NCBI RefSeq assembly: GCF_000420165.1
Contig: NZ_ATUK01000015.1
Coordinates: 62,001 to 126,000, forward strand
DNA from: Thioalkalivibrio sp. AKL19
Lineage (GTDB): Bacteria; Pseudomonadota; Gammaproteobacteria; Ectothiorhodospirales; Ectothiorhodospiraceae
Length of the DNA stretch: 64,000 bases
Direction of reading: 5' to 3'
In this document: one piece after another, positions 4,145-43,145 of the stretch
Position numbering within the stretch: the stretch's first letter is position 1
How the letters are laid out: every line of letters begins with the position of its first letter
Notes under the pieces: generated by a model
The model's input: only the letters and a program-made list of their open reading frames with translations
The model's database searches: none
What the model was told of the DNA's origin: nothing
Translations under genes and position numbers: made by a program

Positions 4145-4420
4145 CCTAGGGAGACGCTGATCAATGCGCACGTCCGCGCTCGAGTCGACTTTGCGGGCTG
4201 ACAAGGCGCGGCGAGTGAAGTGTAGCCGAGCTACATGAGCGAGCCGCTACGCGGTCAGCGGGCAAAATCGGCCGAGCCCCTTCGGGGTTGGGCCCCATTT
4301 TCCCCGATCCTGCGTTGCGCCGCTTGACCGTAGAATGACTACGGCGCTGCGCTGCGCGCCTTGTCTCGGGAAAAATGGGGCACCAACGCGGACGTGCGCA
4401 TTGATCAGCGTCTCCCTAGG
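4145..4420. repeat. Family-A palindromic element, copy 1 (276 bp)
   Basis: Perfect 34-bp inverted arms run from 4145 to 4178 and 4387 to 4420, starting CCTAGGGAGACGCTGATC and ending with its reverse complement. The interior is also partly self-complementary: GACAAGGCGCG near the left pairs with CGCGCCTTGTC near the right, and CCATTTTCCC pairs with GGGAAAAATGG. There is no transposase gene. The size and architecture suggest a MITE-like non-autonomous element or a large REP-type palindrome. Copies at 17151, 40538 and 42931 share the arms. Confidence 0.85.
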
Positions 4421-4473
4421 CCGACGGGGCAAGACCCGGCGGTTTCCAAGGCGGACGCCGGGGTTGCCCGTGG

Positions 4474-4557
4474 AGATCGCCACGTCGCTTCGCTCCTCGC
4501 GATGACGGTGTTTCGCTCTCCCGTCATTGCGAGGAGCCGGAGGCGACGAAGCAATCG
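4474..4557. repeat. Inverted repeat of the GTCATTGCGAGGAGC type
   Basis: Left arm 4474-4508 (CGCTTCGCTCCTCGCGATGA) and right arm 4521-4557 (TCATTGCGAGGAGCCGGAGG) are imperfect reverse complements separated by about 12 bases. The motif resembles the short REP-like palindromes with CGTCATTGCGAGG cores found scattered in many bacterial genomes. It could form a stable stem-loop downstream of dnaG/gltB. Family membership is from memory and has not been searched. Confidence 0.7.
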
Positions 4558-4664
4558 TTATCTATGGCCCCCGATTCCGGTGCGGGACGCGGGACTGGAT
4601 ATTACGCGCTGCTCCTTTGCCACGGTCCCTGTTGGGTCCTGTAATGACGGACTTTTACGCGCGC

Positions 4665-4692
4665 AAACAAAACGGGCCCCGTGAGGGGCCCG
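4665..4692 (-). terminator. Rho-independent terminator of gltB
   Basis: On the minus strand CGGGCCCC-TCAC-GGGGCCCG forms an 8-bp all-GC stem with a tetraloop, followed directly by TTTTGTTTG. It lies 28 bases beyond the gltB stop codon. It is a textbook intrinsic terminator and shows gltB is now a transcript end, not read through into gltD. Confidence 0.9.
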
Positions 4693-4719
4693 AATCGGGG
4701 TGCCGCCGGCTGTGGCGGG

Positions 4720-7700
4720 TCAGGCGGCCTGGCGCAGGTTGGCCAGCAGGCCCCGGAGTTCCGAGGCCTTGGGCTTCACCAGCCAGAACGAGCCCTGGTA
4801 GTCGTCGAAGCGTTCCAGGATCTCGCGGCCCCAGGCGCTGTCCGTCTCGTGCACGAACTCGGTGATGAGCTCCTCGAGATAGTTGCGGTGCGCCTCCATC
4901 TCCTCGGTGTCGAGGCGATGCAGGTCGATCAACTCGTTGTTGATGCGGTCCGGGAAGTCGTTCTCCCGGTCCAGCACGAACGCGAAGCCGCCGGTCATGC
5001 CCGCGCCGAAGTTGATGCCGGTGTTGCCCAGCACCACCATCACGCCGCCGGTCATGTACTCGCAGCCGTGGTCGCCGATGCCTTCCACCACGGCGAGCGC
5101 GCCGGAATTGCGCACGCCGAAGCGTTCGCCACACTGGCCGGCCGCGAACAGCTTGCCGCCGGTCGCGCCATACAGGCAGGTGTTACCCATGATGGTGGTG
5201 TCCTGACTGGCGAAGCTCGAGCCCTCCGGCGGACGGATCACCAGCTTGCCGCCGGTCATGCCCTTGCCGACATAGTCGTTGGCGTCACCCTCCAGGTACA
5301 GGTGCAGGCCGCCGGCGTTCCAGACGCCGAAGCTCTGCCCGGCCGTGCCCTTCATGCGCACGGTGATCGGGGCATCGGACATGCCCTGGTTGCCATGGCG
5401 CTTGGCGATCTCGCCGGACAGGCGGGCGCCGATCGAGCGATCGGTGTTGGCCACGTCGAACTGGTATTCGCCCCCGGCCTTGCTCTCGATCGCCTCGAGC
5501 ATCGCCGCGACCATCTTCTCGGCCAGCTCGCCCTTGTCGAACGGCTCGTTCTTCGGCGCCTTGCAGAAGCGCGGCTTGTCGGCCAGATCGCCGCTGGCCA
5601 GCAGGCCGTTCAGGTCCAGGTGCTGCTGCTTGGGCGTCTCCCCCGGCAGGACCTCCAGCAGATCGGTGCGGCCGATCAGGTCGGTCATGCTGCGCACACC
5701 CAGTTTCGCCATCCACTCGCGGGTCTCGCGGGCGACGAACTGGAAGTAGTGCATGACCATCTCGGGCAGCCCGATGAAGTGGTTCATGCGCAGCACCTTG
5801 TCCTGCGTGGCGACACCCGTTGCACAGTTGTTCAAGTGGCAGATGCGCAGGTACTTGCAGCCGAGTGCCACCATCGGACCGGTGCCGAAGCCGAAGCTCT
5901 CGGCCCCCAGGATCGCGGCTTTGATCACGTCCAGGCCGGTCTTCAGGCCGCCGTCGGTCTGCAGGCGCACCTTGTCGCGCAGGTCGTTGCCGCGCAGGGT
6001 CGCGTGGGTCTCGGTCAGGCCCAGCTCCCACGGGGTGCCGGCGTACTTCACCGAGGTCAGCGGGCTGGCGCCGGTCCCGCCGTCGTAGCCGGAGATGGTG
6101 ATCAGGTCGGCGTAGGCCTTGGCCACGCCGGCGGCGATGGTGCCGACCCCGGCTTCGGAGACCAGCTTCACCGAGACCAGCGCATCCGGATTGACCTGCT
6201 TGAGGTCGAAGATCAGCTGCGCCAGGTCCTCGATGGAGTAGATGTCGTGGTGCGGCGGCGGCGAGATCAGGGCCACGCCCGGATTCGAGTAGCGCAGCTC
6301 CGCGATCATCTTGTTGACCTTGTGCCCCGGCAGCTGGCCGCCCTCGCCGGGCTTGGCGCCCTGGGCCACCTTGATCTGCAGGACCTCGGCGTTGACCAGG
6401 TAGTGCGGGGTCACGCCGAAGCGGCCGGAGGCCACCTGCTTGATCTTGGACATGCGCTCGGTGCCGTAGCGGGAGACGGCCTCGCCGCCCTCGCCGGAGT
6501 TGGAGCGCCCGCCGAGGCGGTTCATCGCGGTGGCCAGGGCCTCGTGGGCCTCCGGCGACAGCGCGCCCAGGCTCATGCCGGCGGAGTCGAAGCGCGGCAG
6601 GATCTCGGCCTCGGACTCGACCTCATCCAGCGCGATCGGCTCGATGTCGTCGCGCACCTTGAGCAGGTCGCGCAGTACGGTCACCGGGCGCTCGTTCACC
6701 AGGTCCGCGTATTCCTTGTAGACGCCGTAGTCGCCGGACTGCACCGCGCGGTGCAGGGTCTGGATCACGTCCGGGTTGTAGGCGTGGTACTCGCCCCCGT
6801 GGACGTACTTCAGCAGGCCGCCCTGACCGGCGCTCTTGCGCGGGTTCCAGGCGCGCTTCGACAGCGTCTCGAGGTCCGCCTGGATGTCGGCGAAGCGGGT
6901 GCCCTTGATGCGGCTGGTGGTGCCGGTAAAGCAGGTCGCCACGACCTCGTCGGCCAGGCCGACGATCTCGAACAGCTGCGCGCCGCGGTAGCTGGCGATG
7001 GTCGAGATGCCCATCTTCGACAGGATCTTGAACAGGCCCTTGTTGATGCCGCGGCGGTAGTTCTGCGCCAGGGTCAGCGGGTCGGCGTTCGGGATCTCGC
7101 CGGACTGGCACATGCCGTGCAGCGCGGAGTACGCCAGATACGGGTAGATCGCGGTGGCGCCGTAGCCGAGCAGCACCGCGAAATGGTGCGGGTCGCGCAC
7201 GGTGGCGGTCTCGGCGACGATGTTGGCGTCGGTGCGCAGTTTGGCGCGGATCAGCGCGTGATGCACCGCGCCCACGGCCAGCGCGGCCGGGATCGGGCGG
7301 CGTTCCGGGTCGATGCCGCGGTCCGACAGCACCAGCACCACGGCACCGTCGCGCACGGCCTCGACCGCGTTTGCGGTCAGGGCCTTCACGGCGTCCTCCA
7401 GCGAGCCGGAGTGGACGTCGTAGTTGAGGTCCATGCGCTCGACGCGGAAGGCGTCCTCGGTCTGGTTGCACAGCTCGCGGAACTTGGCCTCGGACAGCAC
7501 CGGGGAGTCGGACACCAGGCGGTGGGCGTGGTCCGGGGTCTCCTCGAACAGGTTCTGTTCGCGGCCGAAGCAGGTCTCCAGCGACATCACGATGCTCTCG
7601 CGCAGCGGGTCGATCGCCGGGTTGGTCACCTGGGCGAACTGCTGGCGGAAGTAGTCGAACAGCGAACGGGTGTGGCCGGAGAGCACCGCGAACGGCGTGT

Positions 7701-9183
7701 CGTCACCCATGGAACCGACGGCCTCCTGCCCGGCCTCGGCCAGCACGCGCAGGATCTGGTCGCGCTCCTCGAAGGTCACGTCGAACAGCTTCTCGTAGGT
7801 CTCCAGGCGCTCGGGCGGCATCGGCTCGCCGGAGAACAGCTGGTTGTCGTCCAGCTGGCTCTTCAGGTGCCGGACGTGCGCCCGCAGCCACTGGCGGTAG
7901 GGCTGGCGGGTGCGGTTGATGCGGTCGATGTCCTCGGGCTGCAACAGCTCGCCGGATTCGGTGTCCACGGCCAGCATCTGGCCGGGCTTCAGGCGCCCCT
8001 TGGCGACCACGTCCCCGGGGGCGTAGTCATACACGCCGATCTCCGAGGCCAGGGTGATGTGGCGGTCCTTGGTAATCACGTAGCGCGCCGGGCGCAGGCC
8101 ATTGCGGTCCAGGGTGCAGGCGGCGTAGCGGCCGTCGGTCAGCACGATGCCGGCCGGGCCGTCCCAGGGCTCCATGTGCATGGAGTTGTATTCGTAGAAC
8201 GCGCGCAGGTCGGAATCCATGTGCGCGACGTTCTGCCACGCCGGCGGGACCAGCAGGCGCATCGCGCGGAACAGGTCCATGCCGCCGGCCAGCAGCACCT
8301 CCAGCATGTTGTCCAGGCTCTGCGAGTCCGAGCCTTCGAGGTTGACCAGCGGCTCCAGCTCGGCCAGCTCCGGCAGCTTCTCGGTGGCGAATTTGTGCTG
8401 GCGCGCGACCGCCCAGTTGCGGTTGCCCTGCACGGTGTTGATCTCGCCGTTGTGGGCGAGGAAACGGAACGGCTGCGCCAGGCCCCACTGCGGGAAGGTG
8501 TTGGTGGAGAAACGCTGGTGGAACACGCAGATCGCGGTCTCCAGTTCCGGGCGCTTCAGGTCCGGGTAGAACACCGGCAGGTTGGCCGGCATCACCAGGC
8601 CCTTGTAGGAGAGCACGTGCGCCGACAGGCTGGGCACGTAGAACACCGGATCGTCGCCCATTGCGATCTCGGCGCGGCGACGCACCACGAACAGCGCGCG
8701 TTCGAAGGCGGCCGCGTCCATCTCTGCCGGGGCATTGATGAACACCTGCAGGATGTGCGGCTGGCTCTTCATCGCCTCGGCGCCGCAGGCGTCTTCCGGA
8801 TTGACCGGCACCTCGCGCCAGCCGGCAAGCCGGAGCGGGCCGCGCTCGATGGCGCTCTCCACGGCGGCGCGGGTCTCGGCGATCTGGGCCGGGTTGATGA
8901 ACACGATGCCGGCGGCGAAGCGCTCGGCCAGTTCGATGTTCGACTCGGAGGCGAGGGTGCGCAGGAAGGCCTCGGGGGTCTTCATCAGGAGCCCGCAGCC
9001 GTCGCCGGTCTTGCCGTCGGCGGCGATCGCGCCGCGGTGGGTCATGCGTTCCAGGGCCTTGATCGCGGTGTCGACCACCCAGTGGCTGGCTACGCCGTCC
9101 ATGTGCGCAATGAGGCCGAAGCCGCAGTTGTCGCGCTCGAATTCGGGGCGGTAGAGGGTGCCGTTCAGTTGGTTCTGTCGCAT
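4720..9183 (-). CDS. gltB: Glutamate synthase (NADPH) large subunit GltB
   Basis: Makes glutamate from 2-oxoglutarate and glutamine-derived ammonia together with GltD. The protein is 1487 aa, the usual length. The N terminus carries a 19-residue propeptide before the class-II amidotransferase nucleophile Cys20 ([13 protein letters not shown]). The central and FMN-binding synthase domains follow, with [11 protein letters not shown] and [20 protein letters not shown]. The Fe-S cysteine segment is [14 protein letters not shown]. The C-terminal beta-helix has repeated Gly-rich turns ([19 protein letters not shown]). It is the last gene of a leftward aroB-dgt-damX-gltB unit. gltD, normally adjacent, is 5.5 kb away on the other strand. 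Confidence 0.98.
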
Positions 9184-9277
9184 CGGTCAACTCCGGTCGC
9201 AGCGCGCGGGGCCATACGCGGGCGCGGTACGTTGGTCAGGGCCGTCCCTGGAAAAAGAACACGGAAAAAGGCGCAGG

Positions 9278-9307
9278 AATATAGCCGAACCGTCATTCTC
9301 CCGGCAA
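9278..9307 (-). promoter_or_regulatory. Candidate gltB promoter
   Basis: On the minus strand TTGCCG (9302-9307) and TATATT (9278-9283) are separated by 18 bases and would give a leader of roughly 85-90 bases before the gltB ATG. An alternative -35 (TTGACC) lies further upstream. This is a sequence-based prediction only. Confidence 0.4.
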
Positions 9308-9381
9308 ACCGGGGCCGGTCAAGAAGACACGACACCGACGCAGGTTAAGCGTGGCAGGGCGGCTCGCTCCGAACCGCGCGA

Positions 9382-9535
9382 AGCCACAAATCAGGTGAAG
9401 GGCGATTTACAGGAAGACGCGAAGATGGGAAGGAAAGGACGATTCTGACTAAAAACAATCCAAGTCCCTACCATCTTGCCTTTCCATCTTTCTGTTAATG
9501 CTTTTCAGGTCTTCTTTGAGCGCTTCGTGGTGAAC
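9382..9535. repeat. Family-B inverted-repeat element, copy 1
   Basis: The inner arms ACAGGAAGACGCGAAGATGG and CCATCTTGCCTTTCCATCTT...CTGT are imperfect reverse complements. The outer arms GAAGCCACAAAT and CTTCGTGGTGAAC are as well. The spacer is AT-rich. A second copy with the same order of motifs lies at about 26112-26275. No coding capacity is visible. Confidence 0.55.
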
Positions 9536-9549
9536 AAGCAGCCTGGGGA

Positions 9550-11403
9550 TTAGTCGCGGACGGCGTTCTGGACCGAGCCGATGGAGCGGATCCAGGGTTC
9601 GTCACTGCGCACGGCGGCTGGCAGGTCCTCCACCGCGCGCTGGGCGGCGGCCCGGTCGGGAAAGACCCCGGCCAGGATGACCACGAACTCGCGGTTGTTG
9701 ACCCGCGTCGGGATGTAGCGGATGCCGCCCAGTTCGTGCTGGTCGGCATAGGCTCGTGCAGCCCCCATGTTCGGCGCGGCCAGCAGCTGGATGGTGGTGG
9801 CGCCGCCGTCCTGGTCGTTCAGCCAGGTGCGGTCGTTCTGCAGGCGCTCGGCGTCCCCATCTTCTGTAGCGAGTTCCTCGGTGGCGGGCTCCGGTTCCGG
9901 GTCGGCGGTGGGCTCGGGCGCGGGTTCCGGCTCCGGTTCCGGTTCCTGAGCGGGTTCGGGCTCGGGCTCGGGCTCGGCTTGAGGTGCCGGCTCTGCCGGT
10001 TCCGCGGGCATCTCGGGTTCGGGCTCGGCCGGGGTCGGTGCGTCGGTCGGTGGTTCGGTCGGTTCGGCTTCAGCCGGACCGGGCAGGTCCAGCGGGTCGG
10101 CCACGACGACCTCGTCGTCGGTGGCGGGCGCGGCGGGTTCCGGCTCGGCCTCGGTGATGCGCGGTTCGGGCAGGGGCAGTTCGATGATCTCGCTGTCGGC
10201 GGGCGCGGGTTCGCTCTCCAGTAGCTGCCAGGCCACCGGTGCGGCAATCCCCAGGGCCACGGTGATGGCCACGGCCGGGACGAACCAGCGCTGGTTCCAG
10301 AATGCCGCGTTTTCCGTAACTGGGGGTTCGGGGATGCGGTCGTCCGCGTCGATGCCGCCCGGCCCGCGCGCCTGGGGTTCGGCTGCAATGCCGGATTCCG
10401 GAGTGTCGGACGGGGCGGTCGAGGCCAAGGCCTCGGCCGCTGGTGTGAAGTCGTCGTCTGCATCGCGGCTGGCACGTATTGCCGGTTCGGTGGGCGCCTC
10501 CGACCCGGTCTCGGGGGCGGCGGTGAACACGGCCTCGTCGGTTCGCGGTGGGTCTGCGGCGCCTCCTGCGGTGCCGGCCTCGGCCGCTTCGCCGGCGGCA
10601 ACCCCGGGAGCTGTGCTGTCGAGGGCGGCTGCGCCGCCGGCTCGGCGTTCGCTGCGGCACTGGCGCTCGAGGAAGTTGTTGGCCTCGCGGTTGAGGTTTC
10701 CGGGCAGGCCCTGGCTGGTGGTCTGCAGGTGGTGGATGGTGTCCGCATCCAGCAGGCGCTCCGGGTCGGCGAGGCCGGCCGCCTGTAGCCGGTGGCGCAG
10801 GTAGGCCGCCGTCTGCTCGAGGTTGAACGGGCGCAGGCTGACGCGGGTGACCTGGTCCTCGTCGGCGGGGTCGGGGAGGTAGAGGCGCCGGCGCAGAAGG
10901 CCGCCGGAACCGACCAGGACGATGCGCGGGGCGCGGCCGTGCTTGGCGAGGACCTCGCTGCGCATGCGCATCAGGTTGTTGACGATGTCGGTGCCCACAA
11001 GGTGGGCGTCGTCCATTGCGATGACCGGGTCTACGCCCTCGGCGATGCGGTCGGCCAGGAGTTCGGTCAGGGGGCGGTCGGGGTCGTCCGCGTTCTGCGA
11101 GCGCAGGTAGTTGCGGATGGTGTTGTCCACCGACTCGAACTGGGTGTTGATGCGGGCGCGGAAGGCGATCAGCTCGAACGGGTCGGGCAGCATGGCCAGC
11201 AGCCGCATCAACTGGAGGCTGCGGCCGGACCCGTTCTCGCCGGTCATCAGTACGACTGCGCCGGGGCCGTTCAGGGCCGCGCGGGCCGATTCCAGCAGCC
11301 CGTCGAGCAGGGGGTCGCTGTAGACGAAGGTCTCGTCGGGGGCGTCGTCAAACGGCGGTGCGTGCAGGCCGAGTTGTTCCAGGCATTGTTCGGAAAGTGC
11401 CAT
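9550..11403 (-). CDS. damX: DamX-like AAA/SPOR-domain cell-division protein
   Basis: The 617-aa protein has three parts. Residues 1-250 form a cytoplasmic AAA-type domain with Walker A at 55-62 and Walker B at 127-133 (IAMDDAH). A single membrane helix sits at about 373-392. A periplasmic Glu-Pro-rich linker (about 400-510) leads to a C-terminal SPOR domain (about 535-610) of the kind that binds denuded septal peptidoglycan. Walker A reads GENGSGRS, with Arg in place of the catalytic Lys, so ATP hydrolysis may be lost or altered. Its position between aroB/dgt and gltB matches the damX neighbourhood of Pseudomonas. The E/P linker is low complexity. Confidence 0.85.
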   Translation of the reverse strand: MALSEQCLEQLGLHAPPFDDAPDETFVYSDPLLDGLLESARAALNGPGAVVLMTGENGSGRSLQLMRLLAMLPDPFELIAFRARINTQFESVDNTIRNYLRSQNADDPDRPLTELLADRIAEGVDPVIAMDDAHLVGTDIVNNLMRMRSEVLAKHGRAPRIVLVGSGGLLRRRLYLPDPADEDQVTRVSLRPFNLEQTAAYLRHRLQAAGLADPERLLDADTIHHLQTTSQGLPGNLNREANNFLERQCRSERRAGGAAALDSTAPGVAAGEAAEAGTAGGAADPPRTDEAVFTAAPETGSEAPTEPAIRASRDADDDFTPAAEALASTAPSDTPESGIAAEPQARGPGGIDADDRIPEPPVTENAAFWNQRWFVPAVAITVALGIAAPVAWQLLESEPAPADSEIIELPLPEPRITEAEPEPAAPATDDEVVVADPLDLPGPAEAEPTEPPTDAPTPAEPEPEMPAEPAEPAPQAEPEPEPEPAQEPEPEPEPAPEPTADPEPEPATEELATEDGDAERLQNDRTWLNDQDGGATTIQLLAAPNMGAARAYADQHELGGIRYIPTRVNNREFVVILAGVFPDRAAAQRAVEDLPAAVRSDEPWIRSIGSVQNAVRD

Positions 11404-11414
11404 CAGATTCGGTC

Positions 11415-13698: not shown

Positions 13699-13762
13699 AG
13701 CGTGCGGGTTGGCGGCGGCGTAAGCGGGGCATCGCCCACGCTGCGGATCGCTTCACGGACTT

Positions 13763-13790: not shown

Positions 13791-13878
13791 AGGGAGTTCT
13801 GCATGGTCGCCCGGAGTGTTTGGCGGCCAGTTTTGTTGTTTTTGATCGAGATGATCCAGCATCCGTTTCGGAGATTGT

Positions 13879-14094: not shown

Positions 14095-14101
14095 ACCCCT
14101 A

Positions 14102-14681: not shown

Positions 14682-16091
<1,410 letters not shown>

Positions 16092-16099
16092 GCCTTTCG

Positions 16100-17155
16100 A
16101 TGTCCCAGAACCTGAAGAACGACCTCCTGCTGCGAGCCCAGCTGCGCGAACCGGTGGAGCGTCCGCCGATCTGGATCATGCGCCAGGCCGGGCGCTACCT
16201 GCCGGAGTATCGCGAGACCCGCGCCCAGGCCGGCAGCTTCATGAGCCTGTGCCAGAACCCGGAGCTGGCCTGCGAAGTCACCATGCAGCCACTGCGCCGG
16301 TTTCCTCTCGATGCGGCGATCCTGTTCTCCGACATCCTCACCATCCCCGACGCGATGGGGCTGGGTCTGTATTTCGAGACGGGCGAGGGCCCGCGTTTCC
16401 GCGAGCCGGTGCGTACGCTGGAGGCGATCGAGAACCTCCCGGTGCCCGATCCGGAGCAGGAACTGCGCTACGTGATGGACGCGGTGCGCCTGATCCGCCG
16501 CGAACTGGACGGCCAGGTTCCGCTGATCGGTTTTGCCGGTAGTCCATGGACGCTGGCGACCTATATGGTCGAGGGTCAGGGCTCGCGCGACTTCGCCGAG
16601 ACCAAGCGTCTGATGTACGGCGAGCCGCAGGCGATGCACGCCCTGCTGCAAAAGGTCGCCACCGCGGTGACCGACTACCTCAACGCGCAGATCCGCGCCG
16701 GCGCCCAGTCGGTGATGATCTTCGACACCTGGGGGGGCTCGCTTACCCCGCGCGGTTATCGCGAATTCTCGCTGGCGTACATGCAGCGCATCGTCGACGG
16801 GCTGATCCGCGAGAACGACGGCCGCCGCGTGCCGGTGACACTGTTCACCAAGGGCGGCGGGGCCTGGCTGGAGGCGATGGCGGACACCGGGGCCGATGCC
16901 CTGGGGCTGGATTGGACGATCGAGATCGGCGAGGCCAGCCGCCGGGTCGGCGACCGCGTCGCATTGCAGGGCAACCTCGACCCGTCGGTGCTCTACGCAC
17001 CGGAGGCCGTGGTGCGCGAGGAGACGCAGCGCGTGCTGGACGGCTTCGATCGTGATTCCGGGCACATCTTCAATCTGGGCCACGGCGTTCATCCGGGGAT
17101 CGACCCGGAGCGTGTCGCCGCGATGGTGGACACCGTCACCAACTACCGACGCTAG
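16100..17155 (+). CDS. hemE: Uroporphyrinogen decarboxylase HemE
   Basis: Decarboxylates uroporphyrinogen III to coproporphyrinogen III in haem synthesis. The family signature [16 protein letters not shown] is near residue 23. [25 protein letters not shown] and the C-terminal [13 protein letters not shown] follow. The ATG at 16100 is preferred; a TTG at 16088 overlapping the gltD stop is less likely. It sits directly behind gltD, as in Pseudomonas. The stop codon TAG is contained in the terminal CTAG of the family-A palindromic element that begins at 17151. Confidence 0.97.
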
Positions 17156-17318
17156 GGAGACGCTGATTCAATCGCACGTTCCCGTTGGTGCCCCCTGTTT
17201 CCCGCGCACGGCGTTGCGGCGCCGTTGTGCAGAATGGCTGAACGGCAGTCACCGCGCCTTGTTCGCACGCAAATGCGACTCGAGCGCGAACGTGCGATTG
17301 AATCAGCGTCTCCCTAGC
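17151..17318. repeat. Family-A palindromic element, copy 2 (168 bp)
   Basis: The arms are perfect inverted repeats of 31 bases, starting GCTAGGGAGACGCTGATT at 17151 and ending with its reverse complement at 17318. The internal right part (CGCACGGCGTTGCGGC...TTGTGCAGAATG, then GCGACTCGAGCGCGAACG) is shared in diverged form with copies 3 and 4. The left terminal CTAG provides the hemE stop codon. Transcription of hemE from the left and of the hypothetical gene from the right converges on the element, so its hairpin may also end both transcripts. Confidence 0.85.
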
Positions 17319-17360
17319 CCGCAGGAGGGCTTCGGGTTTCGGTGGCCCGCTCTAGTCGGC

Positions 17361-17993
17361 CTAGTCGGCCGTGACGGCGGCCTCGTCGGCGCTGGCTTCC
17401 GCGAGCAATCTCTCCACGTCCACGCGGGTGGCGCGCGCCATCGGGCGCCCGTCCACGGGTGACGGCGGCGCCTGGCGCATGCCGTCCAGCGGGAACACCG
17501 TGAGTTCGATATCGGTGTCGTCCGGACCGCTAAAGGCGAGGAAGGGGATCCGTTGTTCGCGGCCTTGGCGGCTGCGGTAGCGGCGTTCCCCGCTCTCGCA
17601 GTGGATGCCCCGTTCGCCCAGTTCCAGGATCACCTCCTCCACTGTCTCCGCGAAGGCATGGAGATTGATCAGCGGCTGCGACTCGACAAGTCCCTGGAGC
17701 AAGGGGCCGACCAGGCGCGGCTCCAGATGCCGCAGGCGCTCCATCACGATCAGGGCGGCCTCCAGGCGTTCGCGGTAGGCGGCCCGGCTGGCGGGGCTGG
17801 CAAACAGCCGGCTGCGTTCGATGGCCGCGTCCTGGATCTCCAGGTTTCCGGGCATCTCGTGGCGGGCATCCACACCCAGGTGTTCGGCGGCCTTGCGCTT
17901 GGCGAGACCGAAGTCGCGAATGCCGTCGTCGAGCATGATCCGGGCGGCCTCCTGCGCCAGTTCCAGGCGCACGCGCGAAGGGCTGCCCATCAA
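17361..17993 (-). CDS. Conserved hypothetical protein downstream of ponA
   Basis: Soluble 210-aa protein with no signal peptide or membrane segment. The N-terminal half is helical and charged (LDDGIRDFGLAKRKAAEHLG). The C-terminal half has beta-type segments with LINLHAFAETVEEVILELGE, IELTVFPLDGMRQAPPSP and VDGRPMARA. The pattern reminds me of a nucleotidyltransferase-fold family of proteobacterial hypotheticals, but I cannot confirm that. Its ATG overlaps the ponA stop by four bases (ATGA), so translation is probably coupled to PBP1a. Confidence 0.8.
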   Translation of the reverse strand: MMGSPSRVRLELAQEAARIMLDDGIRDFGLAKRKAAEHLGVDARHEMPGNLEIQDAAIERSRLFASPASRAAYRERLEAALIVMERLRHLEPRLVGPLLQGLVESQPLINLHAFAETVEEVILELGERGIHCESGERRYRSRQGREQRIPFLAFSGPDDTDIELTVFPLDGMRQAPPSPVDGRPMARATRVDVERLLAEASADEAAVTAD

Positions 17994-35147: not shown

Positions 35148-35683
35148 CCGTTCAGGTAGGTCTCGAGCAGGGCGTCCAGCCGGCCCTGTGCGGCCAGCAG
35201 CGCCTCGCAGGCCTCGCGCACGGCCCCGCGCCCGCCATGCGCCTCGGTGATCCACTGGGCATGGCGGCGCACCAGTGGATGGGAATCGCCGACCGCAATC
35301 CCGAGTCCGACCCGCCGCATCGCCGGCAGGTCCACGATGTCGTCACCCATGAAGGCCGCCTCGGCGGGGTCGTGGCCGGTGCGCTGCAGCAGTTCGTGCA
35401 GGGCCTCGCCCTTGTCGCGGCGGCCCTGGATCAGATGCTCCACGCCCAGGTCGCGCATGCGGTGCTCGACGACCCCGGAGGTGCGCCCGGTCAGGATGGC
35501 GATCTCGATGCCGCCGTCCAGGGCCAGACGGATACCGTGGCCGTCGCGGCTGTTGAAGGCCTTGTACTGCTCGCCGCCGTCGCCGAGGAACAGGCTGCCG
35601 TCGGTCAGCACGCCGTCCACGTCCAGGATCAGCAGGCGAACGGCCTGCTGGCGGGTCTGCAGGGTTGCGGCGTCCAGGTTCAT
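35144..35683 (-). CDS. kdsC: 3-deoxy-D-manno-octulosonate 8-phosphate phosphatase KdsC
   Basis: Removes phosphate from Kdo-8-phosphate for LPS core synthesis. The 179-aa HAD-superfamily protein lacks a cap domain and acts as a tetramer in known members. Motif I is LILDVDGVLTDGSLF, followed by FNSRDGHGIRLAL, the TGRTSGVVEHR segment and motif IV AAFMGDDIVDLPAM. It overlaps kdsD by one base and lptC by four. Confidence 0.96.
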   Translation of the reverse strand: MNLDAATLQTRQQAVRLLILDVDGVLTDGSLFLGDGGEQYKAFNSRDGHGIRLALDGGIEIAILTGRTSGVVEHRMRDLGVEHLIQGRRDKGEALHELLQRTGHDPAEAAFMGDDIVDLPAMRRVGLGIAVGDSHPLVRRHAQWITEAHGGRGAVREACEALLAAQGRLDALLETYLNG

Positions 35684-36660: not shown

Positions 36661-37634
36661 GCAGTAGCCGTGATTCCCAAATAGACAAGGTAGCTTGCGA
36701 AGGCGACGAGGAGAAGGGCGCCCTGCCAGCGCCGGATCTGTCCGCGGCGGCCCAGCGCGATCAGGAACAGGGCCACGGTCAATGCCAGCATCACCGGATA
36801 GTCGCGCGCGAGCACATCGGCGTCGATTGCCAGCGGTGCGATCAGGGCCGGTACCGCCAGTACCGCGAGCAGGTTGAACAGATTGGAGCCGACTACATTC
36901 CCGATCGCCAGTCCGGCCTCGCGGCGGAAGGCGGCGACCACCGAGGTCGCCAGCTCCGGCAGGCTGGTGCCCACCGCGACAATGCTCAGCCCGATGACCA
37001 GGTCGCTGACCCCCAGTTGTTCGGCGATTTCGACGGCCCCCCAGACCAGGGCCTGGCTGCTCGCCAGCAGGAGCAGCAGCCCGAACACGAGCCAGGCGAT
37101 CGCGGGCCCCAGTCGGTCGCCCTCCGGGATCGTCTCGACCATGCCGCGCACCACCTCGGGGGTGTCGTCATGGGGAGACGGGCGTGCGCGCCGGGCGCTG
37201 ATGGCCATCCAGGCAGTGAACAGGACCAGACCGGCCAGCAGCGCGATGCCCTCCAGCCGGCCCAGTTCGCCATCCACAAGCAGGAGCAACACGCCGAAGC
37301 TGACCAGCAGCAGGATCGGCAGTTCGCGCCGAACCATGCCGCGCCCGATCGCCAGCGGCGCGACCAGGGTCGCGGCCCCCAGCACCAGCGCGATGTTGGC
37401 GATGTTCGAGCCGATCGCGTTGCCCACCGCCAGCCCCGGGTTGCCCTGCAGGCTCGCGAGCACCGAGACCACGATCTCCGGCGCCGAGGTCCCGAATGCG
37501 ACGATGGTCAGCCCGATCAGCAGCGGGCTGACGCCGACCCCGCGCGCGAACGCGGAGGCGCCGAAGACGAAGCGGTCGGCGCTCCAGGTCAGCAGGATCA
37601 GGCCGACGATGACGGCGGCAATGGGTAGTGCCAT
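36657..37634 (-). CDS. Calcium/sodium antiporter (YrbG family)
   Basis: Inner-membrane CaCA-superfamily exchanger of 325 aa with about ten membrane helices in two inverted halves. The two alpha-repeats are visible as AFGTSAPEIVVSVLASLQGN...GNAIGSNIANIAL and AVGTSLPELATSVVAAFRRE...GNVVGSNLFNLLA, each with the ion-coordinating acidic residue. The ATG at 37634 (MALPIAAVIVG) is preferred to a longer in-frame reading. It heads the kdsD-kdsC-lptCAB series, as yrbG does in E. coli. Confidence 0.93.
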   Translation of the reverse strand: MALPIAAVIVGLILLTWSADRFVFGASAFARGVGVSPLLIGLTIVAFGTSAPEIVVSVLASLQGNPGLAVGNAIGSNIANIALVLGAATLVAPLAIGRGMVRRELPILLLVSFGVLLLLVDGELGRLEGIALLAGLVLFTAWMAISARRARPSPHDDTPEVVRGMVETIPEGDRLGPAIAWLVFGLLLLLASSQALVWGAVEIAEQLGVSDLVIGLSIVAVGTSLPELATSVVAAFRREAGLAIGNVVGSNLFNLLAVLAVPALIAPLAIDADVLARDYPVMLALTVALFLIALGRRGQIRRWQGALLLVAFASYLVYLGITATA

Positions 37635-37695
37635 GGACAGTCCATGTTTCCCTGGGAGGGTCAGGGCCGCGATTGTAGCGGATCGGGACGCCGTT

Positions 37696-38628
37696 TCAGC
37701 GGCGCAGGCGCTCCAGACATTCGTCGGTGGTGACTCGCGGCGACCAGCCGAGCTGTTCACGGGCACGGGTGCAGTCCAGTACCAGCGGGCCGTCCAGCCC
37801 GCGCACCCAGCCGGGGTCCCCGGCGCGCGCGGTCACGCGCCAGGCCAGTGGGTGCAGGCCGCGGATCAGCGCCAGGGGGATTGGCAGGCCCCAGCGCCGC
37901 CGGTAGCGCGCCATCGCGCGCAGCGACCAGGCGGGTTCCGCCCCCAGGTTGAAGGTCCCCGCCGTGCGGGTCGTGACGCTGCGCACGATCGCGGCTGCGG
38001 CATCGTCTTCCCACAGAATCTGCACCGGCTGCGCCTCCCCGGCGGGGTAGAATCGCCCGCGGGCGATCTGCAGCAGCAGCGGGTGGGCGTGCGGGCCGAC
38101 GATCGCGGGAGGGCGCAGGACGGTCACGTGGCACTCGGGGTGTTCCCGGGCTAGCGCGCGCAGGGCCTGCTCCACGGCGACTTTGTCCTCGGCGTAGGGG
38201 AAGCGTGGCCGGGTCGGGGTATCCTCGGTCAGCGGTTGCGGGCTGTCCGGCCAGGGGCCGTAGACCGCGGCGCTGGACAGGAACACGATGTGGCGCACAC
38301 CGGCCGCAACCGCGGACCGGAAGACATGATGGCTGAGGGCGACGTTCTGCTCCCGGACCCAGGCACGGTCGTGGCGACGCCGCTGGCCATGCCCCCCCAT
38401 CAGCTGAAAGGCGAGGTGTACCAGGGTATCCACTCCGGTCAGCTCCTGCGGCTGGAGCTGCGCCAGGTCGAGCACGCGCGCGTCGATGGCGGCGCCGTTT
38501 CCGGGGGGTGGCAGCGTCGGCGTGGCCCGGTCCAGCGCGAGGACGTGCTGGACGGCCGGCTCGCGCGCCAGGGCGGGCAGCACGGCCTGCCCCAGGCACC
38601 CGGCGGCGCCGGTCACGGCGACGTGCAT
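37696..38628 (-). CDS. NAD-dependent epimerase/dehydratase family protein
   Basis: Extended short-chain dehydrogenase of 310 aa. The Rossmann motif is VTGAAGCLGQAV at the N terminus. The catalytic Ser-Tyr-Lys set appears as FLSSAAVYG and PYAEDKVAVEQ. VLRPPAIVGP is a typical mid-protein block. It resembles SDR proteins acting on sugar nucleotides or related substrates, but none can be assigned. It ends beside the exchanger and starts 11 bases after the stop of the luciferase-like gene, so the two may be co-transcribed. Confidence 0.88.
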   Translation of the reverse strand: MHVAVTGAAGCLGQAVLPALAREPAVQHVLALDRATPTLPPPGNGAAIDARVLDLAQLQPQELTGVDTLVHLAFQLMGGHGQRRRHDRAWVREQNVALSHHVFRSAVAAGVRHIVFLSSAAVYGPWPDSPQPLTEDTPTRPRFPYAEDKVAVEQALRALAREHPECHVTVLRPPAIVGPHAHPLLLQIARGRFYPAGEAQPVQILWEDDAAAAIVRSVTTRTAGTFNLGAEPAWSLRAMARYRRRWGLPIPLALIRGLHPLAWRVTARAGDPGWVRGLDGPLVLDCTRAREQLGWSPRVTTDECLERLRR

Positions 38629-38639
38629 CCGTGTTTCCC

Positions 38640-39740
38640 TCAGGTCGCGCTGCGGGCGACGGTGGCCGGGGCGGGGTCGGCAAACGCGGGCATGACCTCT
38701 TCCGCGAAGCAGTCCATGGACTCCTCGGTCAGCGCATGCGGAACAGCCCCGGCGCCGAAGGCGAGCAGCACCTGGTCGACCCCGGCCTCGCGCAGCCCCT
38801 CGATGCGTTCGCGACACTCGGTGGGGGTGCCGACGAGCGTCATGCCCAGCATGTCGAGGACCTTCAGGTTGATCCCGGCCTTGACCAGATGGCGGAAGCG
38901 GCCGAGCGAGCGGTAATAGTCGTAGCCCTCGATCAGGCGTTCCAGCACCGGCAGGGTTTGCTGGAACATGTGGCGGTAGAACCACTCGAAGGCGGGCTTG
39001 GCCTCGCGCCGGGCGCGCTTGCCGTCCGGCAGGCACAGGACCCCAAGCGTCATGCCGACCCGGGGCGGGTGGGCCACGTCCGTGCGTGTCGCGTCCCAGG
39101 CCTCGTGGTACAGGCGGATGTCCTCGCGGATCATCTGCCAGGGCTTGAATGGCCCGGCCAGCGCCCCGATGCCCTGCTGCGCCGCCCAGGTAAAGGACTC
39201 CGGGCTGACCGCGGCGGTCCAGATCGGTGGGTGCGGGGTCTGTACCGGGCGCGGCATCACCGGCACGTCGTCCAGGTGATGGAACGGCCCGTCCTGGGTG
39301 ATGCGGCCGGTGGCGAAGGCCTGGCGCAGTGCATCCAGCCCGGCGTCGACCCGGGCGCGGGACTCGCTCATCTCGGCCCCGAATGTGGCATATTCGCGCG
39401 GCGAGAAACCACGCCCGATGCCCAGGTCCAGGCGTCCGCCGGAGAGCTGGTCGAGCATGCCGACGCGCTGCGCCACGCGTAGGGGGTGGTGGTAGGGCAG
39501 CGGGACCACGCCCAGTCCCAGGCGCAGGTGCTCGGTGCGCTGGCTGGCGGCGGCCAGGACCAGGTCCGGCGCGGTGGAGTGGGAGAACTCCGGCATCAGG
39601 TGGTGCTCCACCAGCCAGGCGGTGCCGAAGCCGAGACGATCTGCGCGCTCCCACAGGCGCAGGGTGTTCTCCAGCACCTCCGCTTCGGAGGTCTGCAGGA
39701 AGTCGGGCACCGAAAGCTCATGGAACAGGTCGAAACGCAT
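38640..39740 (-). CDS. Luciferase-like flavin-dependent oxidoreductase
   Basis: TIM-barrel protein of the bacterial luciferase-like monooxygenase family, about 366 aa from the ATG at 39740 (MRFDLFHEL). Family blocks are GFGTAWLVEHHL, LGLGVVPLPYHHPLRVAQRV, MLDQLSGGRLDLGIGRG and VGTPTECRERIEGLREAGVD. It would use FMNH2 or F420. FMN is more likely in this kind of organism. The substrate is unknown. Confidence 0.9.
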   Translation of the reverse strand: MRFDLFHELSVPDFLQTSEAEVLENTLRLWERADRLGFGTAWLVEHHLMPEFSHSTAPDLVLAAASQRTEHLRLGLGVVPLPYHHPLRVAQRVGMLDQLSGGRLDLGIGRGFSPREYATFGAEMSESRARVDAGLDALRQAFATGRITQDGPFHHLDDVPVMPRPVQTPHPPIWTAAVSPESFTWAAQQGIGALAGPFKPWQMIREDIRLYHEAWDATRTDVAHPPRVGMTLGVLCLPDGKRARREAKPAFEWFYRHMFQQTLPVLERLIEGYDYYRSLGRFRHLVKAGINLKVLDMLGMTLVGTPTECRERIEGLREAGVDQVLLAFGAGAVPHALTEESMDCFAEEVMPAFADPAPATVARSAT

Positions 39741-39818
39741 GGCGCCAACTGTGCCGCGCGCACGAGAGCGATACAAGCAGGCCGCGCAAAGCTGCGGTTA
39801 CGTCAGACGAGGAGAGGC

Positions 39819-40475
39819 ATGTCACAGGATCAGGGGGCGATGGTATTGCAGGCCGCCGGGGTCGCGGGCCCCGGCGAGGACTGGTGGGAAGGCTTCTTCC
39901 CGGAGGATCTGCCGCGGGAGTGGCAGCTCGAGTACTACACCCATTACCACAGCCGCTTGCTGCTGCCCGCTTCGGTGTGGCTGGAGACCGAAGCCCCGGC
40001 CTTTGGCGACTGGGGCGAGGCCGTGGCCCCCGCGCTGCGCCTGACACTGGACTGGCCGGCCGATCTTGCTCCCGGGGCGGGGGCCGCGCGGGTCCTCGCG
40101 CTCGCGGAGGCCGTTGGCGACTGCCTGCAGGCGGTGGTCCCGGGGCCGATGGACGCGGCCCGGGTACAGGCGATACGGGAGGCGCTGGAGTCGGCCGATC
40201 TGGGCCGCCTGACCGTCTACGGGGCCGGAGAGGATCGCGCGATCGCACGGGCCGCGGTGGCCTCGTTTCATCCGCCGGCAGGGGGTGAGTCGGCGGCCGC
40301 CGGCGGGGCCTGGCAGCTCGCCCCCGAGGCCGGACTGGATGCCCCGGGCTGGCGGGCGCTGGTGGAGGCCCTGGGTCAGGCCGGTGGCAGCGGGGAGATC
40401 CCGGTGTTCCTGCGTGCCCGCCCGGAACGTCTTTCCGACTTCCGTACCATTGCCCAGTTGCTGGGGGTGGGATGA
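39819..40475 (+). CDS. Hypothetical protein with a short DUF72-like N-terminal motif
   Basis: The 218-aa soluble protein starts at the ATG at 39819 behind an AGGAGAG ribosome site. Residues about 20-45 (DWWEGFFPEDLPREWQLEYY) resemble the opening of DUF72/YecE proteins. The expected TIM-barrel remainder is not recognisable and the protein is shorter than YecE, so it may be a diverged or truncated relative. The C-terminal third contains GGSGEIPVFLRARPERLSDF. It is followed by the family-A element copy 3. Confidence 0.7.
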   Translation: MSQDQGAMVLQAAGVAGPGEDWWEGFFPEDLPREWQLEYYTHYHSRLLLPASVWLETEAPAFGDWGEAVAPALRLTLDWPADLAPGAGAARVLALAEAVGDCLQAVVPGPMDAARVQAIREALESADLGRLTVYGAGEDRAIARAAVASFHPPAGGESAAAGGAWQLAPEAGLDAPGWRALVEALGQAGGSGEIPVFLRARPERLSDFRTIAQLLGVG

Positions 40476-40537
40476 AGTCTTCCAATACGGGTTTGACGGC
40501 CCCCGGGCCGGCGGCCAGACTTCCGGGTTCCGAGGGC

Positions 40538-40816
40538 CTAAGGAAACACTGATTAATGTACACACTCGCGTTGGTACCCCAGGTTTTCCGAGGCAAGGCG
40601 CGCGACGCAGCGGGTAGTGGTTCTACCCGCAAGCGGCGCAACGCAGGATCGGGGAACCTGGGGTACCAACCCCGAAGGGGCTCGGCCTCTTTTGCGTGCG
40701 CACGGCGTTGCGGCTCCCTTGTGCAGAATGACTGCACGGCGGTCACCGCACTCCACTCCTTCGCCCGCAAAAGCGACTCGAGCGCGAGCGTGTACATTAG
40801 TCAGTGTTTCCTTAAG
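40538..40816. repeat. Family-A palindromic element, copy 3 (about 279 bp)
   Basis: The left arm begins CCTAAGGAAACACTGATTAA and the right arm ends with the near-exact complement (…GTCAGTGTTTCCTTAAG). Arms extend about 33 bases with a few mismatches. The left half contains a second hairpin-rich part with GGTTTTCCGAGGCAAGGCGC and GGAACCTGGGGTACC. The right half from about 40,690 is nearly identical to copy 4. It occupies the gap just upstream of mlaF and may carry or disturb its promoter. Confidence 0.85.
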
Positions 40817-40830
40817 GGCGAGGAGCGCGC

Positions 40831-41664
40831 GTGACTGACCCGGCAGTGGAAGACAGTCCGCATATCGTGATCGAGAACCTGCGCTTCCGGCGCGGGCGCA
40901 AGGTGATCTTCGATGACCTGTCGATGCGCATTCCGCGCGGACAGGTGACGACCGTGATGGGCCCCAGCGGCAGCGGCAAGACCACGCTGCTGCGCCTGGT
41001 CGGCGGCCAGCTGCGCCCCGACAAGGGCCGCATCTGGGTTGATGGCCAGGAGGTGGCAAGGCTCTCCACGCGGCGGCTGTACGCCCTGCGCAAGCGCATG
41101 GGCATGCTGTTCCAGAGTGGTGCGTTGCTGACCGATCTCTCGGTGTTCGAGAACGTCGCCTTCCCGCTGCGCGAGCACACCGACCTGCCGGAGGACGTGC
41201 TGCACGCGCTGGTGCTGCTGAAACTCGAGGCGGTGGGGCTGCGCGCAGCGCGCGACCTGGACCCGGCCTCGCTGTCCGGGGGCATGGCGCGGCGTGTCGC
41301 CCTGGCGCGGGCGATCGCACTGGATCCGGACCTGATCCTCTACGACGAGCCCTTTACCGGGCTGGATCCGATCACGATGGGTCAGATCGTCAGCCTGATC
41401 CGCCGGACCAATCAAAGCCTGGGGCTCACCAGCGTACTGGTCTCGCATGACGTGACCGAGGCGATGGCGATCTCCGATCAGGTGGTGCTGATCGCCGATG
41501 GCCGGGTGGTGGATGCCGGACCGCCGGACGAGCTGGAGGCGCGTGCCTCCGACTGGAGCGCGCAGTTCCTGCAGGGGCGTCCGGACGGGCCGGTTCCGTT
41601 TCATTACCCGGGCGCGTCCTACCGCGACGACCTGCTGGGGCAGGCGGAGCGCCGCGATGACTGA
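40831..41664 (+). CDS. mlaF: Phospholipid transport ATPase MlaF
   Basis: ATP-binding subunit of the Mla system that keeps outer-membrane lipid asymmetry. The 277-aa ABC protein has Walker A GPSGSGKTTLLRLV, signature SLSGGMARRVALARAI and Walker B LILYDEPFTGLDP. It has a GTG start at 40831, with a GGCGAGGAG ribosome site upstream. It overlaps mlaE by eight bases. The start lies only 14 bases after a family-A repeat element. Confidence 0.95.
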   Translation: MTDPAVEDSPHIVIENLRFRRGRKVIFDDLSMRIPRGQVTTVMGPSGSGKTTLLRLVGGQLRPDKGRIWVDGQEVARLSTRRLYALRKRMGMLFQSGALLTDLSVFENVAFPLREHTDLPEDVLHALVLLKLEAVGLRAARDLDPASLSGGMARRVALARAIALDPDLILYDEPFTGLDPITMGQIVSLIRRTNQSLGLTSVLVSHDVTEAMAISDQVVLIADGRVVDAGPPDELEARASDWSAQFLQGRPDGPVPFHYPGASYRDDLLGQAERRDD

Positions 41665-42439
41665 CGCGATCGCCTCGCTGGGCCGGACCACGATCAACGC
41701 GCTGGTGGTGTTCGGTCGCGCGTTCGTCTTCCTGATCCGGGTGCTGGCCAGCCTGGATATTGTCATCCGTCGTTTCGGCCTGACGCTTGCCCAGGTGTAC
41801 TCGGTGGGCGTGCGGTCGCTGCTGATCATCATCGTGTCGGGGCTGTTTGTCGGCATGGTGCTGGCGTACCAGGGCTACATCACGCTGGTGAACTTTGGCG
41901 CCGCCGAGGCCCTGGGCGGGGTAGTCGCGCTGTCGCTGGTGCGCGAGCTGGGGCCGGTGGTGACGGCGCTGCTGTTCGCCGGGCGCGCCGGCTCCGCGCT
42001 GACCGCGGAGCTGGGGCTGATGAAGACCACCGAGCAGCTCTCGGCGATGGAGATGATGGCGGTGAACCCCTATCGCCGGATCTTCGCGCCGCGTTTTGTC
42101 GCCGGGTTCCTCTCCATGCCGCTTTTGGCCGCGATCTTCAGCGCCGTGGGCGTGATGGGCGGCTATATCGTCGGGGTGGGGCTGCTCGGCGTGGACAGCG
42201 GCGCCTACTTCTCGCAGATGCAGTCGGTGACCGACTGGAACGAGGATGTGCTCTCCGGCGTCATCAAAAGCATCGTGTTCGGCTTCGTGGTGACCTGGAT
42301 CGCGGTGTTCCAGGGCTTCAATGCCCAGCCGACGTCCGAGGGCATCTCGCGCGCCACGACCCAGACGGTGGTGGTGTCGTCGCTGGCGGTGCTGGGCCTC
42401 GATTTCATCCTGACCGGGCTGATGTTCGGCGCGGGTTGA
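41657..42439 (+). CDS. mlaE: Phospholipid ABC transporter permease MlaE
   Basis: The 260-aa MlaE/YrbE permease has five to six membrane helices, including VRSLLIIIVSGLFVGMVLAY. The conserved loop LVRELGPVVTALLFAGRAGS, ELGLMKTTEQLSAMEMMAVN and SVIFGF-like FGFVVTWIAVFQGFNA segments are typical. It forms the membrane core with MlaF (ATPase), MlaD (MCE ring) and MlaB. It overlaps mlaF by 8 bases; a remnant of a family-A element separates it from mlaD. Confidence 0.95.
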   Translation: MTDAIASLGRTTINALVVFGRAFVFLIRVLASLDIVIRRFGLTLAQVYSVGVRSLLIIIVSGLFVGMVLAYQGYITLVNFGAAEALGGVVALSLVRELGPVVTALLFAGRAGSALTAELGLMKTTEQLSAMEMMAVNPYRRIFAPRFVAGFLSMPLLAAIFSAVGVMGGYIVGVGLLGVDSGAYFSQMQSVTDWNEDVLSGVIKSIVFGFVVTWIAVFQGFNAQPTSEGISRATTQTVVVSSLAVLGLDFILTGLMFGAG

Positions 42440-42440
42440 C

Positions 42441-42461
42441 CCATCAGTGTTTCCCTAGGGT
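42441..42461. repeat. Family-A element remnant between mlaE and mlaD
   Basis: ATCAGTGTTTCCCTAGGG (42443-42460) matches the terminal sequence of the right ends of copies 3 and 4, without a partner arm or interior. It occupies most of the 29-base mlaE-mlaD spacer and reaches to the translation start region of mlaD. It looks like the leftover of an excised or internally deleted copy. The short length leaves some chance of coincidence, but its identity to the family terminus over 13 or more bases is suggestive. Confidence 0.6.
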
Positions 42462-42468
42462 GGCAATA

Positions 42469-42927
42469 ATGAAGGTACGTTTCTTCGAACTGGCGGTCGG
42501 TGTCTTCGTGCTCCTGGGCATCGGGGCGCTGTTCTACCTGGCGGTCCAGGTCAGCAACGTGACCGACTACCACGATCGCGACACCTACACCGTGACCGGC
42601 TATTTCGACAACATCGGCGGCCTCAAGACGCGGGCCCCGGTCACGGTCTCGGGTGTGCGCATCGGCCGGGTCGCGGATATCCGCTACGATCCGGAACGCT
42701 TTCGCGCCGAGGTGACCCTGGCGATCCGCTCGGAGCACGACTACCTGCCGATGGATACCCAGGCCGCCATCCATACCGCGGGGCTGCTGGGCGAGCAGTA
42801 CATTGCGCTGGAGCCGGGTGGCGACTACGAGACCCTGCAGGATGGTGATGAAGTGATGTTTACCCAGTCGGCGCTGGTGCTCGAGAACCTCATCGGCCGT
42901 TTCATGACCAATATGGGGAGCGACTGA
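42469..42927 (+). CDS. mlaD: Mla system MCE-domain protein MlaD
   Basis: The 152-aa MCE protein is anchored by one N-terminal helix (FELAVGVFVLLGIGALFYLA) and forms a hexameric lipid channel ring. MCE features include YFDNIGGLKTRAPVTVSGV, GRVADIRYDPERFRAEVTLA and AAIHTAGLLGEQYIALEPGG. The ATG at 42469 gives MKVRFFEL. An upstream GTG at 42460 is possible. The ribosome-binding area overlaps the family-A remnant. It is followed by a full family-A element before mlaC. Confidence 0.95.
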   Translation: MKVRFFELAVGVFVLLGIGALFYLAVQVSNVTDYHDRDTYTVTGYFDNIGGLKTRAPVTVSGVRIGRVADIRYDPERFRAEVTLAIRSEHDYLPMDTQAAIHTAGLLGEQYIALEPGGDYETLQDGDEVMFTQSALVLENLIGRFMTNMGSD

Positions 42928-42930
42928 GCG

Positions 42931-43145
42931 CCTAGGCAAACACTGATTAATGTACACACTCGCGTTGGCACCCCACAAGCGATTGAATGCAGGGGCTCGG
43001 CCGCCCGTTGTTGACGAAAACGGGCGCGCGCACGGCGTTGCGGCTCCCTTGTGCAGAATGACTGCACGGCGGTCACCGCACTCCACTCCTTCGCCCGCAA
43101 AAGCGACTCGAGCGCGAGCGTGTACATTAATCAGTGTTTGCGTAG
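42931..43145. repeat. Family-A palindromic element, copy 4 (about 215 bp)
   Basis: The left arm CTAGGCAAACACTGATTAAT and the right arm ending ATTAATCAGTGTTTGCGTAG are near-perfect inverted repeats. From about 43,025 the right half is almost base-for-base identical to copy 3, with a single difference seen in about 110 bases. The left interior differs: a short ACAAGCGATTGAATGCAGGG block and a GCCCGTTGTTGACGAAAACGGGC hairpin. It separates mlaD from mlaC within the operon. Confidence 0.85.

Follow-up and report, generated by a model that had tools for sequence, protein, structure and literature searches.

ERIC belongs with RUP, NEMIS, QMITE and Nezha to the miniature inverted-repeat transposable elements (MITEs) of bacteria. 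In the passages of PMC3733652 and PMC10969869 that deal with them, RUP, NEMIS, QMITE and Nezha are portrayed as non-coding elements of 70–300 bp with terminal inverted repeats and a stable transcript fold, and PMC10969869 describes MITEs as typically AT-rich. Full-length insertion sequences (ISs) of the IS5 family are represented by E. coli IS5, which is reported to duplicate the tetranucleotide Py-T-A-Pu upon insertion; the target records in the relevant part of PMC5493358 have CTAG as the commonest site (15/24) and CAAG once. Where it names Thioalkalivibrio, PMC3733652 speaks of repetitive extragenic palindromes (REPs). Here we report on a family of palindromic elements in a 64,000-nt stretch of Thioalkalivibrio sp. 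AKL19 DNA (NCBI RefSeq assembly GCF_000420165.1, contig NZ_ATUK01000015.1, positions 62,001 to 126,000), hereafter ‘the window’, which is part of contig C15 of the strain's own 2.88-Mb genome (G000). Titles and opening abstract lines listed by searches of the open-licence literature on Thioalkalivibrio MITEs and insertion sequences, MITE conversion, IS5 MITEs and folds contain no account of this family. The palindromes are very probably best filed as non-autonomous IS5-type MITEs, the arms of which would be fixed at insertion and the interiors rewritten by recombination.

Window copies and the partner insertion sequence

The initial annotation, made from the letters of the window alone, had described four full copies and a remnant, all intergenic and with perfect or near-perfect arms within each copy. 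The copies indeed lie within a few bases of where they had been placed, 26–28 of 28 arm positions are matched, and the remnant consists of a single end. The features are as follows, with element ends taken after the 4-bp flank and arms scored over 28 nt:

4146..4419, minus strand: copy 1 with 4-bp flanks CTAG/CTAG; element 4150–4415, 266 bp, perfect arms (28/28 matched)
17152..17317, plus strand: copy 2 with flanks CTAG/CTAG; element 17156–17313, 158 bp, right-type arms (27/28)
40538..40815, plus strand: copy 3 with flanks CTAA/TTAA; element 40542–40811, 270 bp, left-type arms (26/28)
40542..40569, plus strand: left arm of copy 3; over the first 17 nt it agrees with the IS at G000:C11:202921-204116 (left end) at 16/17
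40784..40811, plus strand: right arm of copy 3 (outer stem), 26/28 matched
40694..40814 (in copy 4, 43024–43144), plus strand: right-hand block common to copies 3 and 4, 121 nt, 97% identical
42443..42458, plus strand: remnant, a single right-hand end ATCAGTGTTTCCCTAG between mlaE and mlaD
42932..43145, plus strand: copy 4 with flanks CTAG/GTAG; element 42936–43141, 206 bp, left-type arms (27/28)

No transposase is encoded by any of the copies, which at 158–270 bp are too short for one. A full-length IS with the same ends, which the initial annotation had suggested looking for, is present in the same genome: it measures 1.2 kb (G000:C11:202921-204116) and its gene specifies a DDE transposase of the IS5 family (Pfam DDE_Tnp_1, 3e-28; NCBIfam NF033581, 306 bits against a cut-off of 140). 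Among the matches listed, the left end of this IS agrees with at least seven own-genome copies at 17/17 nt. Comparison of two ISs with 44 own copies placed 126 of 134 matches at the IS ends, and the other eight had E-values of 2.6 or worse. ISs with these ends also occur in some other species of the genus.

The two arm subtypes that had been distinguished are real and resemble the two ends of the IS. Left-type arms continue in the manner of the left IS end (GAT followed by YAATG) and right-type arms in the manner of the right IS end, in which GAT is followed by TTAAT in five of the nine seen and by TTATT or TTATG in the other four. Each of eight related IS copies with both ends visible has one left and one right end, the arrangement typical of IS5-type elements, whereas the palindromes have two ends of one type: 138 of 187 candidate pairs are left–left and 18 right–right (156 together), and no pair is clearly mixed. 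The one pair called mixed reads as a left type with mutations; another 30, mostly false pairs, include an arm that was left unclassified. Because their ends are of one type, the palindromes are filed as a derivative of an IS rather than as an IS. The family shares with the IS5 family (E. coli IS5; NF033581) short inverted ends, a 4-bp duplication, a Py-T-A-Pu target with CTAG the commonest and, in its partner, the DDE transposase family; it differs in that the window copies have no gene, both of their ends are of the same type and, apart from the ends, their sequence does not match the IS. An IS5-type transposase would move the copies in trans.

The family is abundant and, by DNA similarity in the genomes sampled, confined to the genus. 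About 40 places in the own genome match copy 3 when its sequence is used as the query, and at least 44 paired copies with no more than six arm mismatches were found in the own-genome stretches examined. A 16-nt end pattern (two mismatches or fewer) occurs 122 times in the own genome against once for the reversed-pattern control, which takes the family far beyond chance; twelve other genomes of the genus hold 84–168 occurrences each and the remaining 17 hold 1–49. By DNA similarity the element is found in 16 of 58 sampled genomes including its own, all within the genus (16/30), and in none of seven genomes from other genera of the same family. An end-sequence scan of named genomes gave 111 stretches, and among the 80 listed with names 76 are from Thioalkalivibrio; the other four are single matches in Paraburkholderia, Caballeronia, an Oscillospiraceae metagenome-assembled genome (MAG) and a Treponema MAG. 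Across 274 genomes of the class, scored at no more than two candidates per genome, there are only two weak matches outside the genus (53 nt, E 3e-4; 58 nt, E 6e-4). A class-wide hairpin module was considered and rejected, the strict pattern being present in only two of the 274 genomes, both of this genus. In the two Burkholderiales, Paraburkholderia mimosarum (L099:2544) and Caballeronia catudaia (L105:6302), the exact end CTAGGGAAACACTGATTAATG is followed by sequence that is similar in both, and the single reading frame tested in each encodes no transposase; these ends possibly mark another IS5-type element.

Target sites, empty sites and stop codons

Sister genomes have empty sites for the window copies. 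Copies 2, 3 and 4 are missing at otherwise matching sites and copy 1 is missing in one relative (G021), in keeping with the expectation of empty sites in sister strains. Within 200-kb syntenic blocks of four genomes, nine distinct insertion-by-genome comparisons, representing six insertions, leave a gap of exactly 4 bp where the element is missing; other comparisons gave gaps of 5, −3, −6, −7 or larger. Of the eight IS copies with both ends visible, five are flanked by identical tetranucleotides (CTAG at L185, GTAG at L200, CTAG at L210, TTAA at L187 and TAAG at L188). The 4-bp empty-site gap and the identical IS flanks both agree with the Py-T-A-Pu target duplication of IS5-type elements. CTAG, proposed earlier as a possible target-site duplication, was right in kind: the target is YTAR-like with CTAG commonest, and insertion is into such tetranucleotides with a 4-bp duplication. 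Among 158 copies, gathered by a scan that favoured CTAG, TTAA faces TTAA in 12 copies and CTAG faces CTAG in 51, and TTAA is never combined with CTAG; identical end tetranucleotides occur in 66 of these copies against 42 expected (maximum 55 in 1000 shuffles). Both ends are YTAR in only 20 of the 44 own copies.

CTAG itself occurs 11 times in the window against about 191 expected from base composition, which makes it about 17-fold rarer, and at element edges it often appears as CCAG. The rarity of CTAG and the CCAG edges would presumably fit very-short-patch repair.

The insertion of copy 2 exactly on a stop codon illustrates a wider pattern. Its left CTAG supplies the TAG of hemE (16088–17155; identity confirmed by Pfam). 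Facing genes were called throughout by a heuristic based on GC content at third codon positions (GC3) rather than from annotation; on that basis there are 25 gene ends that face an element and show their stop, and at 11 of these, belonging to 11 different copies of the 44, the stop falls inside the 4-bp target, while five more facing frames have no stop in range and some flanks are too short. The window contains 35 YTAR sites outside the elements, of which seven coincide with stops, 18 are intergenic and 10 fall in coding sequence, so that residence on stop codons (11/44 copies) compares with 7/25 for non-coding YTAR sites. Special homing is not needed to account for this figure, as it follows from the target rule once gene-breaking insertions are lost: YTAR contains TAG or TAA and is depleted elsewhere, which leaves a quarter of the own copies on a stop codon. 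The target duplication keeps the stop codon intact.

The initial annotation had also suggested a giant REP family, and the same features bear on a giant REP or bacterial interspersed mosaic element (BIME) family spread by a RAYT (TnpA-REP) transposase. The palindromes are intergenic and numerous, and REPs have been reported in this genus, the relevant passages of PMC3733652 naming the palindromic GTAG-1 and GTAG-5. Those REPs are 20–40 bp long and carry a GTAG tag, and the same passages make no mention of IS5-type ends for them, whereas the present element is two-ended, with IS5-type ends, a YTAR-like target and a 4-bp duplication, and its full copies are branched structures of 265–313 bp rather than 20–40-bp hairpins. 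By length and ends the palindromes thus fall outside REPs and BIMEs, defined as 20–40-bp palindromes with a GTAG or CGTC tag and a link to RAYTs (for which no search was made), and we regard a RAYT-driven origin as highly improbable.

Arms and interiors after insertion

RNA folding, which the initial annotation had recommended, gives a branched structure for copies 1 and 3, in which an outer stem is joined by a short branch and two long ones (−170 to −185 kcal/mol; z −12.7 to −14.4). Across 37 own copies and 60 pairs of a predicted consensus, 95.8% of cells pair, as compared to 32–46% when the pairs are slid, and 25 of the 60 pairs are changed on both sides against 16.4 in shuffled and 4–10 in slid controls. 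This covariation, together with the stability of the fold, the placement straight after stop codons and the presence of two copies in one operon, might suggest a selected structured RNA, such as a 3′-untranslated region stabiliser, an RNase III substrate or a riboregulator, for which mobility is secondary. Against it, the two strands fold alike (mean −175.0 versus −174.0 kcal/mol, 80 to 60 among 140 copies), presence varies between close relatives, and the stop-codon placement matches the non-coding YTAR background described above; we hold this explanation to be unlikely.

The match between the two arms of each copy had been read in the initial annotation as a palindrome corrected against itself. 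One arm would be copied onto the other during replication by template switching at quasi-palindromes, keeping the arms matched while the copies drift. The mechanism has been published for other sequences (template-switch repair of hairpins, PMC8794818) and would yield matched stems and paired changes. Consistent with it, the arms match within copies and many pairs are changed on both sides across the family. However, in the 44 own copies a left arm differs from its own partner by a mean of 1.61 of 28 positions, and by 1.27 from whichever arm of a different copy is closest, compared with 5.4 for other copies on average, so that another copy's arm is as close as the partner. Same-site orthologs also speak against it. 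In 22 strict ortholog pairs (17 groups), with flanks about 80–98% identical, 1.9% of arm positions are changed; 21 changes affect a single arm, one is a double change that is not matched, and matched double changes are absent. Arm asymmetries in these pairs are shared by both members at 24 positions, present in one member only at 20 and different at two. The strict set excludes elements with more than six arm mismatches (165 of 187 kept), among them a 317-bp false palindrome with nine arm mismatches that had raised the retained asymmetries to 32. L016/L054 (unrelated flanks), L148/L048 (8 bp apart) and L149/L165 (short flank matches), together with two rows that belong to a single locus, were also dropped, their orthology being false or doubtful. 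L080/L030 (flanks about 84% identical) does show one matched double change, at arm position 28, and is not counted among the 22 pairs since its junction does not satisfy the strict rule. In 13 of 37 own copies position 23 does not pair, as if derived from a mismatched source.

At this divergence the absence of matched double changes in the 22 pairs argues that arms are inherited rather than corrected in place. The matched arms look inherited from matched source copies: they would be fixed at insertion, and thereafter they change one side at a time. A comparison of 15 ortholog pairs, leaving out one false and one near-site pair, contains 81 single changes and eight kept double changes (seven in interior stems, mostly apical ones, and the L080/L030 change already mentioned); the interior double changes could be made by template switching and equally fit conversion of a whole hairpin. 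Taking the arms and the interiors together, we give little credence to self-correction as the explanation of the family.

The modular interiors noted at the outset, as in the block common to copies 3 and 4, have a simple architecture. Each of three loop positions exists in two size classes that differ by about 15 nt, namely A with 10 or 25 nt, B with 9–10 or 24–25 nt and C with 17 or 32–33 nt; these sizes hold in nearly all of 142 classified full copies, a few lying one to five nt off and seven B lengths of 33–37 being parse errors. All eight combinations of loop states occur among these copies. As read from the module states, 12 of the 17 groups of same-site orthologs differ in at least one module, a further group differs only by deletion and four are the same; an apical hairpin allele also differs between orthologs L011 and L181. 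Such differences might instead reflect separate insertions into the same target, and near-site independent insertions do occur (the 8-bp offset of L148/L048). Strict pairs nevertheless have in common their junction, their orientation, nearly all arm positions and the 24 asymmetries, which leaves separate insertion as an explanation with only a small chance of being correct. We infer, as the simplest reading of these sequences, that copies exchange their interiors through recombination: these would be rewritten in place by ectopic gene conversion among dozens of dispersed copies, and the ends would escape because their flanks share no homology. In a more elaborate and tentative version, which may well be wrong, the copies form a pool of hairpin cassettes in which two alleles at each of the three loop positions are swapped in place by recombination faster than point mutation, the structure being kept at the DNA level on both strands (as a cruciform or single-strand hairpin) and the ends frozen.

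Filing the palindromes as IS5-type MITEs agrees with the earlier description of them as MITE-like. They are short and non-coding with terminal inverted repeats, they are dispersed in many copies with empty sites in sister genomes and a 4-bp duplication, and their ends are those of a full-length IS in the same genome. Compared with the bacterial MITEs introduced above they are unusual in having 28-bp matched arms that extend beyond the 17-bp shared end, a multi-branch fold, and three loop modules, each with two states, which vary between orthologs at the same site, and they are by reading GC-rich instead of AT-rich.

Several results weigh against this reading. Identical tetranucleotides bound only 16 of the 44 own copies, and three of the eight IS copies also have differing flanks (CTAA/CTAC at L184, CTAG/TTAA at L201 and CTAA/CTAG at L202). 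In the 107 copies other than CTAG/CTAG a direct-repeat model leaves 144 mismatches and an inverted model 131, so that the former fits no better. Several empty sites are not YTAR (CCAG, CAAG, CGGG, CGGCG, TGTC and AATA), although CAAG and ctgg are among the IS5 targets recorded in the part of PMC5493358 cited. A search with one query protein found a strong transposase match in five of the 16 element-bearing genomes of the genus, a weak or partial match in three and none at all in eight, so that elsewhere the partner may have been lost or a different one may serve the family. As to the interiors, further pair types do not exceed shuffles (54 versus 54.3 in the 37 own copies), the 60 pairs had been picked from a consensus of the same sequences, some module changes could be deletions, and the exact own allele is found in another own copy for only two of 11 multi-difference segments (taken from five own copies compared with their true orthologs).

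Individual copies, neighbouring genes and related elements

Copy 1 is flanked by two minus-strand genes, those for glutamate synthase and dnaG; its site is empty in G021, which reads GCAG there, and the region is too divergent to judge in G004 and G002. Copy 2 has suffered an interior deletion that largely removes branch 1 and is absent in G009, G021, G002 and G004. In G004 about 250 bp of other sequence follow the hemE stop (the ortholog of window 17156–17361) and include the inverted repeats AGGAGCCTGTCGG ... CCGATAGGCTCCT; this insert is perhaps another small mobile element. Copies 3 and 4 both reside within the mla operon and have in common a private variant that is missing from the G009 ortholog of copy 3. 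Copy 3 lies upstream of mlaF (40831–41664), has its same-site ortholog in G009, and corresponds to empty sites in G002 (CTAA) and in G004 and G021 (TTAA). Copy 4, in which branch 1 is deleted, separates mlaD (42436–42927) from mlaC and is empty in G009, G002, G004 and G021. An ATG in its left arm starts a reading frame that crosses the element and continues into mlaC (window 42950–43837), a possible N-terminal extension of mlaC. A stretch similar to the remnant aligns in G004, in G021 and, with changes, in G009, and does not do so in G002.

Rfam models at gathering threshold matched the window only at a tRNA (1–69). The outer arms of the window copies have by reading no 3′ T run of the kind that marks intrinsic terminators, for which no scan was run.

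A CGTCATTGCGAGGAGC...GCAATC repeat adjoins copy 1 (window 4480–4560), and repeats of this type form the interior of six 131–158-bp elements with the same IS5-type ends in the sister-clade genomes G010 and G011 (L321–L326), which implies that these ends can carry other hairpin cargo. The ends themselves are also targets, as seen at L210:1037-2552, where an IS5-type IS occupies precisely the CTAG that borders a right-type copy. Three paired elements and further ends form a local cluster inside 2.2 kb at L332 (G029:C1:949300-951500). At L327, L328 and L329 the two ends are fused into micro-palindromes of 24 bp (GGGAAACRCTGATCAGYGTTTCCC), the product to be expected if the sequence between the TGATCA direct repeats of the two arms is deleted.

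The family provides a clean natural test of palindrome evolution in bacteria, since same-site copies in related species separate the events of insertion (matched arms) from later ones (single-arm decay and module switching). It also shows how, under a 4-bp target rule, mobile DNA can come to lie on stop codons while genes stay intact, and it offers a marker by which strains of Thioalkalivibrio can be compared. If the cassette pool were true, the copies would constitute one interacting population instead of independent decaying fossils.

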